From Kiritimatiellaceae bacterium (GTDB lineage Bacteria; Verrucomicrobiota; Kiritimatiellia; Kiritimatiellales; Tichowtungiaceae): a stretch of 64,000 nt of DNA. Shown piece after piece: positions 6,489 to 11,259 of this stretch. Location of the stretch: positions 186,001-250,000 of the forward strand of contig JABFQY010000001.1 of NCBI GenBank assembly GCA_013141415.1. Direction: 5' to 3'. The notes beneath the pieces were generated by a model that saw only the letters and a program-made list of their open reading frames with translations, made no database searches and was not told where the DNA came from. The position numbers were made by a program, and so were the translations under genes. Every line of letters starts with the position of its first letter. The stretch's first letter is position 1.

Positions 6489-7139
6489 CTAAAAGTTTTC
6501 CCAGAACCCGGGCGACAGCCGGATGGTTTTTCCTTCCCATACAAAGCCGCCGCGCTTTTCCAGTTTCTGGATCAGGCGGCTGAAAGTCTCCGGCGTAGCA
6601 CCGATGGCGGAGGCAATATCTTTTTTTGGAAGGTCTGGGGTAATCACCTGTTTTTCGCCGTAGTGGTCGCGCAGGAATTCCACGAAGCGCGCTTCGACAT
6701 CCATCGAGGTAAGCTGCTGAATGCGCTCGGCGAGGTAGCGCTGTTTGTGCATGAGCATCGCCATGAAATCATTGCGGAATTCTTCTTCGTTAAGCAGTTT
6801 GAGGAAGCCGGCGCGCGGCAGTTCGATGACTTCGGCTTCGGTACAAGCGACGGCGGTGACGGGATATTTGCTTTTCTCGAACAGGATCACTTCGGCGAAC
6901 AGCTCACCTTCTTTGACGGTTTTGATGACCGTTTCGCGCCCGTCGGCATTCGTTTTGACCAGTTGGATGCTGCCGGAAGTGAGCAGGTAAACCGCTTTGC
7001 CGTCGGATCCTTCCATGAAAAGCAGATCGCGCTTTTCGACTGCGCGGCGACGGCTGAGTTCTGCCAGCCGTTTACAGGCGGTTTCGGAAAGGCCGCTGAA
7101 AAACTTGGCGGCGCGAATGAGCTGGTAGGGATCGGTCAT
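6489..7139 (-). CDS. Crp/Fnr family transcriptional regulator, HcpR/DNR-like candidate
   Basis: A 216-residue regulator with an N-terminal cyclic-nucleotide-binding-type beta barrel (residues about 15-130, with GELFAEVILFEKSKYPVTAVA), a dimerisation helix and a C-terminal Crp-type helix-turn-helix (about 165-205). The recognition helix reads ETFSRLIQ, keeping the E-x2-S-R pattern that in Fnr reads TTGA/TCAA half sites. The N-terminal cysteine cluster that carries the Fe-S centre in true Fnr is absent, so sensing, if any, must differ, as in DNR, NnrR and HcpR. A TTGAC-N4-GTCAA site stands 2 kb away in front of hcp. Assigning it as the hcp regulator is inference. Confidence 0.9.
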   Translation of the reverse strand: MTDPYQLIRAAKFFSGLSETACKRLAELSRRRAVEKRDLLFMEGSDGKAVYLLTSGSIQLVKTNADGRETVIKTVKEGELFAEVILFEKSKYPVTAVACTEAEVIELPRAGFLKLLNEEEFRNDFMAMLMHKQRYLAERIQQLTSMDVEARFVEFLRDHYGEKQVITPDLPKKDIASAIGATPETFSRLIQKLEKRGGFVWEGKTIRLSPGFWENF

Positions 7140-7176
7140 GGGCGAAGTTTAATCATGGATGGATAAATTTTGGCAC

Positions 7177-7205
7177 AAAAAAAGGATGCCGGGATGGCAT
7201 CCTTT
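7177..7205 (-). terminator. Intrinsic terminator after the PEP-CTERM gene
   Basis: On the minus strand AAAGGATGCC and GGCATCCTTT form a perfect 10-bp stem with a five-base loop, and a T-run follows. It lies 21 bases beyond the stop codon of the PEP-CTERM gene and separates it from the Crp/Fnr gene. Confidence 0.9.
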
Positions 7206-7225
7206 TCAATGAGTTCGGAGTCAAC

Positions 7226-7924
7226 TCAGGCCAGAAAGCGGCGGCGGATCCAGAATCCGGCGACAAATATCAGCGCCGTCAAAGATGCGGAGGCTGGTTC
7301 GGGAATGGTGTAATTGTATTGAATGGACATCGAGCCGTCTGCAGAAACCGGATTGCCTTGGAACTGAGCACCGCTAAATGCACCCATGCTTAAATACTGA
7401 TTTACACCGTAAGTAACAGTGTAGGTGCCGTTTCCCTTATACTGGTCGAACACGGCAGAAGAAAGATAGGCGTTGTCGCTTACGGATGTGGCGCTTGTAA
7501 CCAGAGCATCATAGTCTGTGCCGCTGGTGCTGAAGGTCGTACTGTCGCCATCATCAGCAGCCAGTGTCATCTGTTTCGATGATGTAGAGACCAGTGTTCC
7601 GTAGAATGTAGAAAAGTTTTGTTTCAGCAACGTGACATCCGAAGCGGTAATGCCGCCATTCGATCCGAACGAGGCCGTGCCGGAAGCAGGATTTTGCCCG
7701 TCATTATCAATGCCCAAGCTTGCGCCCGCCGCTGTATTGAGAACAACGGAAACAAAAATTGAGTTCAGGGTATAAGTCCCTCCAGCGTCGTCAAACTTGT
7801 TGAATGTTAGGATCGACGAGTAATTCGGCGAACCGCTGAATGTCTTTGTTTGTGTAATGGTGGCCGCTTGAAGGGTTCCGGCGGCAACAAGCAATGCGGA
7901 GATTAAAATCAGTATTTTTTTCAT
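7226..7924 (-). CDS. PEP-CTERM sorting-domain surface protein (choice-of-anchor type)
   Basis: A 232-residue exported protein. It begins with a signal peptide (MKKILILISALLVAAGTLQA), has a Ser/Thr/Asp/Gly-rich body with ATITQTKTFSG resembling choice-of-anchor domains, and ends in a PEP-CTERM signal: IPEPAS, a hydrophobic helix and a basic RRR tail. Exosortase would cleave at PEP and attach the protein to the surface; no exosortase is in this window. The ATG at 7924 is preceded by AAGGAC. An in-frame upstream ATG at 7942 exists but only adds a charged stub. It is a single-gene unit with its own terminator; body function unknown. Confidence 0.88.
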   Translation of the reverse strand: MKKILILISALLVAAGTLQAATITQTKTFSGSPNYSSILTFNKFDDAGGTYTLNSIFVSVVLNTAAGASLGIDNDGQNPASGTASFGSNGGITASDVTLLKQNFSTFYGTLVSTSSKQMTLAADDGDSTTFSTSGTDYDALVTSATSVSDNAYLSSAVFDQYKGNGTYTVTYGVNQYLSMGAFSGAQFQGNPVSADGSMSIQYNYTIPEPASASLTALIFVAGFWIRRRFLA

Positions 7925-8073
7925 TTTTCGTCCTTCATGCAATTTGAAATCAATCTATAGAGCGATTAACGGAGCGCAATTAATCATAATGAAGCGGGTT
8001 GCGTCAATTTTAGTTACATATAGTTTTGATGATGTTGCTGTCAGGGGAGCCTTTACGCAGGCCGGACCGACGG

Positions 8074-9102
8074 TTAATTGTGATTGCAGCAGCGTTCCTT
8101 CCGGCGGGGCAGGACGGCCGAGATTAGCAGCCCGGCGAGGAGGATGGCGCAAATTTTGTCAAGACGGCCAGTCTCAGCGGCATGGTGGTGAACCTGTTCG
8201 TTGATGATCCCGGGAGTAAGGATCCGGTTAAGCAACCAGCCAGCGGCCAGCGAACAGCTGGCGAGCGTGGCAAGATAGATGATCATGGTGCGGCGGCCCA
8301 TCGTTTGCAGAACCGTAGCGATGGTTGCGGCGTTGGTGGCCGGACCGGTGATCATAAAAACCAGCGCCGCGCCCGGCGAAAGTCCCATGCCGATCATAGC
8401 GAGCGCGATCGGAATCGAGCCGGTGGAGCAGACGTAGAGCGGAATGCCGAGTGCCATAACGGCCAGCATCGAAAGCCACTCGGAACTTAAATAGCGGGTG
8501 AAGAAGTCTTCCGGCACCAGTGCTCCGATCAGGCCGGAGATGATAACGCCGATCAGCAGGGCGCGGCCAATATCGCGCGGCAGAACCCCGAAGCCGTAGG
8601 TGAAAACCTGTTTCCATTTGCTTGCGCCGGTTTTCCGGTTGCATGTCGGGCAGTCGTCATCACCGCATTTGTCATCGGACTCTTCGTCCGGTGGTGTTAA
8701 GGCTTCGACCGCCGCGCCGCAAATGACACCGGTGATGAATGCTACCGCCATGCGGAAAATGGCAAAGAGCGGACCGAGCAGTCCCCACGTGGCGGCGATG
8801 CTGTCCACGCCGGTTTGCGGCGTGGAGGTGAGGAACGAAATTGCGGCGCCTTTGGTTGCGCCGTGGCGGCGTAGCGAAGCGGTAACCGGAATGACACTGC
8901 ACGAACAGAGCGGAATCGGGACACCGAACAGGGAAGCTTTGGTGATCTGCCACAGACCGCGCTTGCCGAGATGGTTTTCGATAAAGGAGACCGGGACAAA
9001 AGCGCTGAGTACGCCCGCCACGAAAAAGCCGAGCAGAAGATACGGCGCCATAATTGCCATGACATCCCACGCTTTGAGGACTACGTTAACGGCGATTTCC
9101 AT
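8074..9102 (-). CDS. DUF318/ArsP-like permease, SO_0444-type Cu/Zn efflux candidate
   Basis: A 342-residue membrane protein with two bundles of hydrophobic helices (about residues 10-125 and 170-310) joined by a cytoplasmic Asp/Cys-rich loop (DDKCGDDDCPTCNRK). PIPLCSCSVIPV in the first half and PLYVCSTGSIPIA in the second are the family hallmarks; the conserved cysteines are thought to bind the exported metal or metalloid. The Cys/Asp loop and the CCNHN tail fit a soft-metal substrate. The family includes organoarsenical permeases and SO_0444-type Cu/Zn exporters; which applies cannot be decided from sequence. It is divergent from hcp and may share its regulated intergenic region. Confidence 0.85.
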   Translation of the reverse strand: MEIAVNVVLKAWDVMAIMAPYLLLGFFVAGVLSAFVPVSFIENHLGKRGLWQITKASLFGVPIPLCSCSVIPVTASLRRHGATKGAAISFLTSTPQTGVDSIAATWGLLGPLFAIFRMAVAFITGVICGAAVEALTPPDEESDDKCGDDDCPTCNRKTGASKWKQVFTYGFGVLPRDIGRALLIGVIISGLIGALVPEDFFTRYLSSEWLSMLAVMALGIPLYVCSTGSIPIALAMIGMGLSPGAALVFMITGPATNAATIATVLQTMGRRTMIIYLATLASCSLAAGWLLNRILTPGIINEQVHHHAAETGRLDKICAILLAGLLISAVLPRRKERCCNHN

Positions 9103-9125
9103 GAGGACACCTTTTTTTTACCAAC

Positions 9126-9166
9126 TTGACGCAGGTCAAGGAGCTGTTTTCAGAAGTGAGCATAAT
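9126..9166 (+). promoter_or_regulatory. Fnr/HcpR-type box and -10 element in front of hcp
   Basis: TTGAC-GCAG-GTCAA at 9126-9139 is a perfect palindrome of the kind bound by Fnr, DNR, NnrR or HcpR regulators. CATAAT at 9161-9166 is a good -10. The predicted transcription start near 9173 puts the palindrome centre about 41 bases upstream, the spacing typical of Fnr-activated promoters. No good -35 hexamer is present, which also fits activator dependence. Confidence 0.75.
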
Positions 9167-9209
9167 CTCTGGCATTGAATGTAGGAAACCAAAACCGAAA
9201 GGAACTCTC

Positions 9210-10793
9210 ATGAGCATGTTTTGCTATCAGTGTGAACAGACTGTCAAATGCACCGGATGCACCACCTTTGGCGTATGCGGAAAAGATCCGGACACCTCGA
9301 CGCTTCAGGACTTGCTGGTCGAAGTGTGCAAGCAGATTGCCGTTGCTGCGAAAGATAAGAAGAACCGTGCCGCCGACCTCTACGTGATGGAAGGGCTCTT
9401 CACCACCGTCACCAACGTCAACTTCGATGTCGAAGATATCGCCGGTGTCATCCGCCGTGGCGCGGATGTACTTAAAGGTCTCGGCGCAAAATCAACAATC
9501 GATTTCAACGCCAATCTCGCCGGCCTGATTAAGCAGGGCGAAGCCGTAGGCGTTGTCAGTCGCAAGCAAAAGTTCGGCGACGATATCGCCGGTTTATTGG
9601 ACTTGGTGTTGTTCGGCCTTAAAGGCACGGCGGCCTACGCCGACCACGCCTATGTTCTCGGCAAAGAAGATCCCGCCGTTTACGCCTTCTTCCACGAAGC
9701 GCTGGCAACTCTCAAAAACGGCCCGGCGACCGTCGATGTGCTTCTGCCGCTGGCTCTCAAAGTCGGCGAAGTCAACCTGACGGTCATGGGACTGCTCGAC
9801 GCGGCCAACACCGAAACCTACGGCCACCCCGTACCGACGCCAGTGAATATCAAGGCCGTCAAAGGCAAAGCGATCCTCGTTTCGGGTCACGACCTGAAAG
9901 ACCTCGACCTGCTTCTCAAGCAGACCGAAGGCAAAGGCATTAACATTTACACTCATGGTGAAATGCTTCCATGCCACGGTTATCCGGAGCTGAAAAAGTA
10001 TAAACACCTCGTCGGAAATTACGGCGGTGCATGGCAGGATCAGCAGAAAGAATTCGAAGCATTTCCCGGCGCCATCCTGATGACCACCAATTGCATCCAG
10101 AAGCCGAAGGAAAACTACAAAGCGCGCATCTTCACCTGCGGCCTTGTTCAGTGGCCCGGCGTAGAGCATATCGACGACGGCAACTTCGCGCCGGTCATTA
10201 AAGCCGCGCTCGAAGCTCCCGGCTTCACCACGACCGAACCGGAAAAAACCATTCTGGTTGGCTTCGGCCATAATGCGGTGCTCAGCGTTGCTCCGACTGT
10301 CATTGAAGCGGTCAAGAGCGGTGCGCTCAAGCACTTCTTCCTGATCGGCGGGTGCGACGGCGCCAAGAGCGGACGCAACTATTACACCGAGTTTGCCGAG
10401 GCTGTGCCGAAAGACTGCGTGATCCTCACGCTGGCCTGCGGTAAATACCGCTTCAACAAACTGGAGTTCGGTGACATCGGCGGCATTCCGCGCCTGCTCG
10501 ACATCGGGCAGTGCAACGACGCCTACTCGGCGATTCAGATCGCCGTCGCGCTTGCCGGAGCCTTCGGTTGCGGCGTCAACGACCTGCCGCTCTCGATGAT
10601 CCTGTCGTGGTACGAACAGAAAGCCGTCTGCATTCTGCTGACACTGCTGCACCTCGGCATCAAGAACATCAAACTTGGCCCGAGCCTTCCGGCGTTCGTC
10701 ACGCCTGCCGTGTTGAATGTACTGGTTGAAAAATTCAACATTGCACCGACGACTACGGCTGAAGCCGATCTGAAACAATGTTTGGCGAAGTAA
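9210..10793 (+). CDS. hcp: Hybrid cluster protein (hydroxylamine/NO reductase)
   Basis: A 527-residue cytoplasmic iron-sulfur enzyme. The N-terminal CYQCEQT...GC....GVCGK arrangement (Cys 5, 8, 17 and 23) matches the cluster-binding pattern of the short-spaced Hcp classes. Hybrid-cluster ligand regions include GLFTTVTNVNFD, THGEMLPCHGYPELKKY, TTNCIQKP, GCDGAKSGRNYYTEFAEAVP and TLACGKYRFNKLEFGDIGGIPRLLDIGQCND. Hcp reduces nitric oxide or hydroxylamine under anaerobic nitrosative stress. The start at 9210 has a strong AAAGGAA ribosome site seven bases upstream. A Fnr-type box precedes it and an intrinsic terminator follows it, so it appears monocistronic; no hcr reductase is adjacent. Confidence 0.97.
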   Translation: MSMFCYQCEQTVKCTGCTTFGVCGKDPDTSTLQDLLVEVCKQIAVAAKDKKNRAADLYVMEGLFTTVTNVNFDVEDIAGVIRRGADVLKGLGAKSTIDFNANLAGLIKQGEAVGVVSRKQKFGDDIAGLLDLVLFGLKGTAAYADHAYVLGKEDPAVYAFFHEALATLKNGPATVDVLLPLALKVGEVNLTVMGLLDAANTETYGHPVPTPVNIKAVKGKAILVSGHDLKDLDLLLKQTEGKGINIYTHGEMLPCHGYPELKKYKHLVGNYGGAWQDQQKEFEAFPGAILMTTNCIQKPKENYKARIFTCGLVQWPGVEHIDDGNFAPVIKAALEAPGFTTTEPEKTILVGFGHNAVLSVAPTVIEAVKSGALKHFFLIGGCDGAKSGRNYYTEFAEAVPKDCVILTLACGKYRFNKLEFGDIGGIPRLLDIGQCNDAYSAIQIAVALAGAFGCGVNDLPLSMILSWYEQKAVCILLTLLHLGIKNIKLGPSLPAFVTPAVLNVLVEKFNIAPTTTAEADLKQCLAK

Positions 10794-10853: not shown

Positions 10854-11078
10854 TTACGGCTTGCAGACTTTGCAGGCGTTGTATCCGGCCTTGAGCGCGG
10901 CTTCCGGCGCGCTGAATGTAGCGGTGCAGTTTGTGTTACTGAAGAATCGGCAGCTTGATTTATGGAAGGTCTTGCTGTCCGGATTGCCTTTATATGTGGT
11001 CTCGACTCCTGCGTCAGCGGCGATAGAAACAAACGCTGCGCTTAATACGGCTGCTGTAATGATCGCTAACTTTTTCAT
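10854..11078 (-). CDS. Small exported protein with Ada-type metal-binding motif
   Basis: A 74-residue protein with a signal peptide (MKKLAIITAAVLSAAFVSIAADA) followed by a single small domain, YKGNPDSKTFHKSSC...KAGYNACKVCKP. This resembles the Ada metal-binding fold found as a stand-alone domain in secreted or nuclease-linked proteins, where four cysteines hold zinc; Cys in HKSSC, NTNC and the final C-x2-C are visible. The start at 11078 is preferred over an in-frame ATG at 11183 because it begins the signal peptide and has AAGGAGA upstream. Role unknown; it shares the hcp terminator. Confidence 0.75.
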   Translation of the reverse strand: MKKLAIITAAVLSAAFVSIAADAGVETTYKGNPDSKTFHKSSCRFFSNTNCTATFSAPEAALKAGYNACKVCKP

Positions 11079-11259
11079 CCCGTCTCCTTGTGATGGTTCC
11101 TGTTTACGCGAATACGACCCCGTGCCGCATTCTGGCGGAGAACATACCAGAGATTTAAAGAATGAAAAGATTTGCTTCAACAAAATTAACTTTTCAGCAA
11201 TCCGGTTGTAACATCCGGAACTTGAAGCAGCGGCGGAAGCAGGATAGCGTTCGGGCCGC

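Follow-up and report, generated by a model that had tools for sequence, protein, structure and literature searches.

A predicted HcpR-type regulator and its putative box upstream of hcp in a bacterium of the Kiritimatiellota

Introduction

The HcpR regulon was predicted in 2004 and 2005 (Rodionov 2004, PMC545781; Rodionov 2005, PMC1274295). In the available excerpts of the later paper, regulators of the HcpR1 branch from the delta-proteobacteria carry Ser or Pro at position 180 and have the motif TTGACnnnnGTCAA, while most members of the HcpR2 branch have the motif GTAACnnnnGTTAC, with a different one in Porphyromonas gingivalis (PMC1274295). The P. gingivalis HcpR, which belongs to the HcpR2 branch, governs hcp under NO and has Met68 as a heme ligand, according to the excerpt of that report (PMC12750200), and the HcpR2 of D. 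desulfuricans is modelled in the portion available as a repressor of hcp (PMC5701242). DNR regulates denitrification genes (excerpt of PMC1274295).

Here, a comparable arrangement is described from a 64-kb window, the whole stretch of DNA analysed, which contains a Crp/Fnr regulator gene, hcp and a palindromic box.

Results

The gene at 6489..7139 (minus strand) encodes a 216 aa protein, assigned as an HcpR-like Crp/Fnr transcriptional regulator on the basis of profile matches, predicted structure, tree and family alignment. It matches cNMP_binding (76 bits) and HTH_Crp_2 (35.6 bits), and its predicted structure has the Crp/Fnr fold, a cNMP-binding domain with an HTH_Crp domain (mean pLDDT 93.1, pTM 0.68). 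An earlier note on this DNA had described the protein as lacking the Fnr Fe-S cysteines but keeping the E-x2-S-R recognition pattern, and had named closer Crp/Fnr homologues elsewhere in the genome as a finding that would speak against its reading. Both features are confirmed. By reading, there are two Cys, neither in a conserved column, and the Fnr-type cluster is absent. The recognition helix is TPETFSR, giving both P-E-x3-R and E-x2-S-R. No closer homologue was found, this regulator being the single HTH_Crp_2 match in its own genome (95.5 % complete), in which a family-profile search also returned one match; for Rrf2, one full-length protein and one weak partial match are present.

Across 66 family members, no conserved Cys column exists, the best reaching 36 of 66 at a position where this regulator has Ser29, and there is no conserved His column. 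The residues that stand out are Met130 (60 members), Tyr135 (64), Tyr92 (61) and the FAE motif. Residues equivalent to CRP 180, 181 and 185 are Pro, Glu and Arg, with the Pro found in 65 of the 66. The combination of Ser or Pro at 180 and Glu at 181 with the box TTGACnnnnGTCAA, characteristic of HcpR1, is present in the regulator and the box at 9126–9139.

The best Foldseek matches of the predicted model are CRP-like structures with cAMP, with DNR only at rank 21, a ranking that does not decide the subfamily. In a search of PDB with the family profile, DNR is the best full-length bacterial regulator (113 bits), against about 65 bits for Fnr structures. The regulator falls inside a 66-row clade that includes hcp-linked delta-proteobacterial MAG proteins, in a tree that had no named, experimentally studied HcpR1 (named HcpR1 proteins are those of Geobacter, Desulfuromonas and Synechocystis) and from which 17 of 80 loci were omitted as likely near-duplicates, judged by eye. 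Outside this clade (support 100/98), DNR pairs with a regulator from an Acidithiobacillus plasmid; the outgroup branches are long, therefore only the ingroup clade is used. A plasmid collection yielded no close relative, all 724 records having less than 60 % identity, and about 30 % in the 25 listed.

The hcp gene (9210..10793, plus strand), annotated as hydroxylamine reductase, encodes a hybrid cluster protein of 527 aa (PF03063, 563 bits; TIGR01703, 759 bits, cut-off 361). The HcpR-type box TTGACGCAGGTCAA (9126..9139, no strand), assigned by exact pattern match and by same-class sites at the hcp loci of relatives, starts 84 nt upstream of the hcp ATG. The perfect TTGAC-N4-GTCAA palindrome that the earlier note had reported before hcp is thus confirmed, and it is the only exact occurrence in the window, where about 0.06 would be expected by our own arithmetic; matches with up to two mismatches are not in excess in the 64 kb (20 observed, 25.6 by chance). 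The candidate -10 hexamer CATAAT (9161..9166, plus strand), read from the sequence and conserved in its spacing, lies 21 nt after the box, which places the palindrome centre approximately 40.5–41.5 nt before the expected transcription start, in agreement with the 41 bases given previously. A spacing of 21–22 nt between box and -10 is the geometry of class II activators, and E. coli Fnr sites have a geometry of about -41.

A perfect TTGA-N6-TCAA core is present upstream of hcp in all 19 loci compared (20 genomes, own included), starting 81–105 nt before the ATG. The -10 hexamer scored best by script is 21 nt past the box in 16 of these loci and 22 nt in two; in the other, L010, GATAAT at 15 nt was selected, and CATAAT is also present at 21 nt. 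When the intergenic regions of 12 of the 19 loci are aligned, they are mostly unconserved except for the box and the -10.

Divergent from hcp is an SO_0444-family permease gene (8074..9102, minus strand; NF033936, 338 bits, cut-off 300), whose start codon is 23 nt from the box on the side opposite hcp. Between permease and regulator sits a gene for a PEP-CTERM-like secreted protein (7226..7942, minus strand), with a choice-of-anchor E domain (NF033208, 27.7 bits, cut-off 23.8) and PEP-CTERM assigned by reading. A search found similar genes in this gap in L076, L077 and L080, and L079 has an ORF there without a significant match; in three close relatives (L078, L081, and L084) the permease gene overlaps the regulator gene. 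Regulator and hcp are on the same contig, no more than 2.2 kb apart, in seven of the ten genus genomes with the regulator; they are on separate contigs in G001 and G003, and approximately 340 kb apart in the single-contig G009. Outside this phylum, the regulator gene and hcp are often transcribed divergently and flank the box.

Strict TTGAY-N4-RTCAA sites number six in the own genome, compared with one for a reversed control pattern, and by ORF reading only two precede a gene start: that of hcp and that of an frdX-like 4Fe-4S ferredoxin gene on another contig (C2). The frdX box has the same 21-nt spacing to its -10 (TAGAAT). Among other loci, 17 frdX-like genes lie beside boxes, and Fer4 domains are present in all three proteins scanned. 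Counting frdX genes with their start in view (the 25 loci L156–L180, minus three without a gene start and five repeats), the box is upstream in 16 of 17, own included, with one mismatch in the G009 site. Nitrite reductase gene nrfA was considered as a further target and rejected as a regulon member, there being no PF02335 match in the own genome and no strict box in the stretches read at five sister-family nrfA loci, of the seven such loci.

In a first control of 30 hcp loci, the box was present in 13/13 with the regulator and 2/17 without. Most of the 17 regulator-less loci came from other classes, therefore the control was widened across the phylum, taking one hcp per genome. Of the 109 genomes that have hcp, 106 were used; G079 and G122 (gene start missing) and G283 (contig end) were dropped. 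The regulator cut-off of E <= 1e-50, which gives 30 genomes, was set after the data had been seen, the next match being 1.5e-38. The hcp gene has a strict box before it in 22 of the 23 genomes with the regulator and in 4 of the 83 without. Relatedness is corrected only by the subset of the own class with the own order omitted, where the counts are 12/13 and 1/24. The hcp gene itself is present in 23/30 genomes with the regulator, the other seven having no hcp match, and in 86/258 without (p 6e-6).

In the one exception with a regulator, G030, the hcp site TTGAGGCAAGTCAA is outside the strict pattern. The four that carry the box without a counted regulator are G022, G006, G293, and G139; in the last of these, a more distant regulator homologue is encoded beside hcp in divergent orientation, at a distance of 166 nt. 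A contig end was rejected as the cause of the missing G006 regulator, since that end lies downstream of hcp. Across many phyla, among the loci of the best 80 of 116 relatives, hcp is present in 29, and in 27 of these a strict box lies no more than 250 nt upstream of hcp. Regulator, box and targets are also found in MAGs labelled Lentisphaerota, Spirochaetota, Acidobacteriota, Fibrobacterota, and others. Plasmid hcp loci of Pelobacter, Acidithiobacillus and Desulfosarcina were taken as sources of reference proteins; that of Desulfosarcina has a distant regulator and no strict box directly before hcp.

Ferrochelatase was found in none of the 13 genus genomes, compared with all seven sister-family genomes, and HemB in 6 of the 13. 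In G008 (97 % complete), for example, both are absent, and regulator, box and hcp are present.

Discussion

It is highly probable, judging from the sequence comparisons, that the product of 6489–7139 is an HcpR of Rodionov's HcpR1 branch that acts from the box as a class II activator of hcp and frdX in response to an NO-type signal. A dimer would bind the palindrome at 9126–9139, with the downstream half site taking the place of the -35 element in the hcp promoter, so that activation would be Fnr-like, and the same protein would activate the frdX-like ferredoxin gene through the second box. Regulator and box very probably switch on hcp and its partner ferredoxin together; in an anaerobe, Hcp and FrdX would then work together to reduce NO or hydroxylamine. 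The protein family, the box with its conservation and geometry, the co-occurrence with the regulator and the two predicted targets are read from the sequences themselves, from which we infer binding, and activation rather than repression. NO or a related reactive nitrogen species as the signal is suggested by what is known of the HcpR family and of Hcp.

The earlier note had proposed a local NO response circuit in a phylum where none was described. The pairing of regulator, box and hcp is supported by the sole candidate regulator, its linkage to hcp, the box and regulator control, the promoter geometry and the frdX target. With frdX on another contig, the circuit extends beyond this locus, and its NO signal is an assignment by analogy. 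No report for the phylum was found in the literature searched; the kind of regulon, however, has been known since 2004.

As in HcpR1 (excerpts of PMC545781 and PMC1274295), there is a Crp/Fnr protein without Fnr cysteines, with Pro and Glu at the specificity positions and the same box, core targets hcp and frdX, and a regulator gene often adjoining hcp. The differences are the host phylum, here Kiritimatiellota (NCBI), the presence of just two strict sites before genes in this genome and, in this genus, a regulator gene that comes after a permease gene of SO_0444 type. The FAE motif and the PETFSR helix also occur in DNR of Pseudomonas (3dkw); however, the regulator falls outside the DNR pair on long branches. 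The targets found here are hcp and frdX, and those of DNR are denitrification genes (PMC1274295, in part). The P. gingivalis HcpR, compared by description only, is likewise a Crp/Fnr protein that targets hcp, but with another box motif and the heme ligand Met68 (excerpts of PMC1274295 and PMC12750200).

It is unlikely that the regulator binds the box as a repressor, blocking hcp when NO is absent or blocking the divergent permease. The closeness of the permease start codon to the box and the model for D. desulfuricans HcpR2 (PMC5701242, in part) would fit repression; the class II spacing, however, is kept in all 19 hcp promoters compared from the genus and its sister family, and a scan of 7000–9300 found no consensus sigma-70 promoter. 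The palindrome class and the position near -41 are shared with E. coli Fnr, and hcp boxes in L011, L013, and L014 read TTGAT-N4-ATCAA, the Fnr consensus. Yet it is very improbable that the box is a usual Fnr site for an Fe-S Fnr that senses oxygen: the one HTH_Crp_2 protein found in this genome has two Cys in place of the four-cysteine cluster, the family has no conserved Cys column, and its profile scores lower on Fnr structures than on DNR.

Slighter still is the chance of a cAMP-type Crp that senses a cyclic nucleotide. Although the PF00027 match and the cAMP-bound structures at the top of the Foldseek ranking point that way, the phosphate-contact Arg82 of CRP is replaced by an invariant Pro (66/66), the phosphate-cassette GE reads AE, and the cAMP contacts Arg82/Ser83 of CRP align to Pro93/Val94, and its Arg180 to Pro183. 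Least credible of all is a chance site or intrinsic terminator. The palindrome is selected by a terminator-like scan (CTTGACGCAGGTCAAG then GAGCTGTTTT), but its half-site letters and position are kept in 19/19 loci where most intergenic sequence is not, the box tracks the regulator across the phylum, and the upstream gene in the ORF list is the minus-strand permease.

With the HcpR1-type activator as the preferred reading, the heme genes and the lack of a conserved His or Cys column raise the tentative and rather doubtful idea that the genus HcpR senses NO or a related species using no heme made by the cell, or even no heme at all. The system would lend itself to studying NO sensing by HcpR in genomes whose heme synthesis looks incomplete, and the order of the permease and regulator genes points to a testable candidate for a new partner. 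The HcpR/hcp/frdX nitrosative-stress circuit would be extended to the Kiritimatiellota, where this 2.2 Mb genome, in which one HTH_Crp_2 protein was detected and two strict sites precede genes, may represent a small natural version of it.

The box upstream of hcp

Four genes occupy 6489-10793: a Crp/Fnr regulator gene (6489-7139, minus strand), a small PEP-CTERM-like gene of the choice-of-anchor type (7226-7942, minus), an SO_0444-family permease gene (8074-9102, minus), and the hybrid cluster protein gene hcp (plus, ending at 10793). The palindrome TTGACGCAGGTCAA (9126-9139), the perfect box of the earlier note, is in the gap that separates the start codon of the permease from that of hcp; it is the only exact match to TTGAC-N4-GTCAA within the window. 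Read from the window sequence, 70 nt separate this box from the hcp ATG, and a CATAAT is 21 nt downstream of the box; the promoter scan found no consensus sigma-70 promoter in 7000-9300. By our own arithmetic, about 0.06 exact matches would be expected by chance in the window, and matches with two mismatches permitted are not more frequent there than in shuffled sequence. By itself the exact match is modest statistics; the main evidence is conservation.

Comparison was made with 20 genomes of the same order, 13 from one genus (including this one) and seven from a sister family. There are 19 hcp loci in 18 of these, all of which have a perfect TTGA-N6-TCAA core, starting 81-105 nt before the ATG, and fit TTGAY-N4-RTCAA (the strict box). 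The -10 hexamer chosen by script is 21 nt from the box in 16 loci and 22 nt in two; in locus L010 a hexamer at 15 nt was chosen, yet CATAAT is present at 21 nt too. A 21-22 nt spacing fits the geometry used by class II activators, Fnr among them. When the hcp upstream regions of 12 genus members are aligned, TTGAC and TCAA are the invariant columns and the others are mostly variable, the -10 excepted.

Association of the box with the regulator

As a control, 288 genomes of the same GTDB phylum were investigated, counting the regulator at E ≤ 1e-50, a cut-off of our choice. The regulator was found in 30 and hcp in 109, with hcp present in 23 of the 30 genomes with the regulator versus 86 of the 258 without (P = 6e-6, rough because related genomes are not independent). 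Upstream DNA was read for one hcp per genome in 106 of the 109. Where the regulator is present, 22 of 23 genomes have the strict box ahead of hcp; where it is absent, 4 of 83 do (Fisher P = 1e-17, likewise rough for related genomes). Within the class, own order included, the counts are 22/23 and 2/25; leaving out the order, they are 12/13 versus 1/24 (P = 9e-8, with the same roughness from relatedness). Outside this class the regulator is absent at E ≤ 1e-50, and 2 of 58 genomes have the box.

Some genomes count against the pairing. G030 has the regulator with TTGAGGCAAGTCAA, one letter off the strict box, and the box is found without a counted regulator in G022, G006 (a 93 %-complete genome of the same genus), G293 (at -226), and G139. 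In G139, from another class, a weaker regulator homologue (133 bits) is divergent from hcp, 166 nt away, with the box present (C1:2702825-2705246); the circuit, on this example, reaches wider than the cut-off.

A second target, frdX

This genome contains six strict sites versus one for the reversed control pattern, an excess of the strict pattern that is seen in each of 14 genus genomes. By ORF reading, four of the six are inside genes and two precede genes, these being hcp and a gene on contig C2 for a 239-aa protein with 4Fe-4S domains (Fer4_6, 31.4 bits, cut-off 25). Passages by Rodionov and colleagues (PMC545781, PMC1274295) name a ferredoxin of this type frdX and give hcp and frdX as the HcpR regulon core. 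Of the 17 relatives of the 239-aa protein examined, 16 have a strict box 65-73 nt upstream of the start, and only G009 departs from this, with ATGATCTGGATCAA. In this genome TAGAAT is exactly 21 nt past the frdX box, and the best -10 is at 21 nt in 7 of 10 genus frdX promoters; a good -10 was not seen in any of the seven sister-family frdX promoters. In all seven sister-family genomes the regulator is on the same contig as frdX, and in four (G013, G015, G016, and G018) the two are close convergent neighbours; G016 has both, with the hcp match absent.

The regulator protein

The 216-aa regulator has cNMP_binding and HTH_Crp_2 domains and, as the earlier note proposed, lacks Fnr-type cysteines, having two Cys in total. 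Its recognition helix is TPETFSR; in alignment, E. coli CRP positions 180, 181, and 185 correspond to Pro, Glu, and Arg, and the cAMP contact Arg82 to a Pro invariant in 66/66 family members. The AlphaFold model, made from a 67-row alignment, has a Crp/Fnr fold (mean pLDDT 93.1, pTM 0.68). Among the 60 of 152 matches to solved structures listed for the family profile, DNR is top of the full-length bacterial regulators (113 bits), with M. tuberculosis CRP at 98-99, E. coli CRP at 67-73, and Fnr at about 65 bits. No rival Crp/Fnr homologue was found elsewhere in this genome (95.5 % complete): the regulator is its sole HTH_Crp_2 match and its only family profile match. Orthologues are present in 17 of the 20 genomes of the order, this one included. 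Of the 10 genus genomes having the regulator, 7 carry it on one contig with hcp, at most 2.2 kb away.

In a 72-row tree, the protein groups with its own genus (support 100/100). This group is part of a 66-row clade, supported at 100/98, to which hcp-linked delta-proteobacterial proteins also belong. DNR with an Acidithiobacillus plasmid regulator, the CRPs, and Fnr are outside. Because the outgroups sit on long branches and the rows include no named HcpR1, membership of HcpR1 by descent is likely rather than certain. According to passages of PMC5701242, D. desulfuricans HcpR1 binds heme and a CRP-like site, HcpR2 was modelled with Fe-S clusters, and these names do not simply match the Rodionov branch names.

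Occurrence in other phyla

The best 80 of 116 regulator relatives in named genomes were kept, some with short loci. Their labels include Kiritimatiellota, Verrucomicrobia, Lentisphaerota, Spirochaetota, Acidobacteria, Fibrobacter, delta-proteobacteria, KSB1, and Krumholzibacteria, among others. The closest is L076 (90 %), from an uncultured Verrucomicrobia MAG, and further close regulators are from MAGs of Kiritimatiellales and of Pontiellaceae, which NCBI places in Kiritimatiellota. Of these 80 loci 29 contain hcp, often divergent from the regulator around the box, and 27 of the 29 have a strict box in the 250 nt upstream of hcp. In L124 the box precedes a frdX-like gene, itself upstream of hcp, and in L132 it is about 0.9 kb before hcp. 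Across the loci, 17 frdX-like genes adjoin boxes; single cases adjoin genes for a hemerythrin-domain protein (L107), a DUF438-hemerythrin-PAS protein (L114), a PAS protein (L144), and a NapC/NirT-type cytochrome (L126). Boxes counted in, strict sites occur across these loci at a rate of 0.013 per 237 positions.

The permease and neighbouring elements

The permease stays beside the regulator in other relatives too. In L078, L081, and L084 the two genes overlap by 11 nt and are therefore probably co-transcribed; a permease-hcpR operon divergent from hcp is likely. An ORF of about 230-250 aa separates them in the window, L076, L077, L079, and L080. By search it matches the PEP-CTERM-like gene of the window in L076 (35 %), L077 (67 %), and L080 (27 % identity), with no link found for L079. 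Between this gene and the regulator, 7180-7206 reads as a perfect 11-bp inverted repeat, AAAAGGATGCC-GGGAT-GGCATCCTTTT, accompanied by a minus-strand T run. It resembles an intrinsic terminator, although the terminator-like scan did not pick it; the regulator in the window may therefore have its own promoter. At 10854-11183, a small protein has a weak sunset domain match (23.9 bits, below the cut-off of 27).

Signal and significance

No conserved His or Cys column was found among the 66 family members; the best are present in 25 and 36, and the window protein has Val61 and Ser29, respectively, at these columns. Met130 (60/66), Tyr135 (64/66), and Tyr92 (61/66) are conserved. Ferrochelatase was found in none of the 13 genus genomes versus all seven of the sister family, and HemB in six (this genome included) and seven, respectively; the genus may have lost heme synthesis or carry it out differently. 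A passage of PMC12750200 states that P. gingivalis HcpR uses heme. The organism itself obtains heme from outside. Heme-free sensing by the present regulator is therefore only a possibility.

The observation in the earlier note, a regulator without Fe-S cysteines and a perfect box before hcp, is confirmed, and its interpretation as a nitric oxide response circuit is largely, not wholly, supported, NO as the signal being what would be expected from the HcpR family. In titles and abstracts searched, with most subscription papers and RegPrecise outside the search, HcpR is reported neither from Kiritimatiellota nor from Verrucomicrobiota. The circuit is a well-preserved example of a known regulon, new as far as searched.
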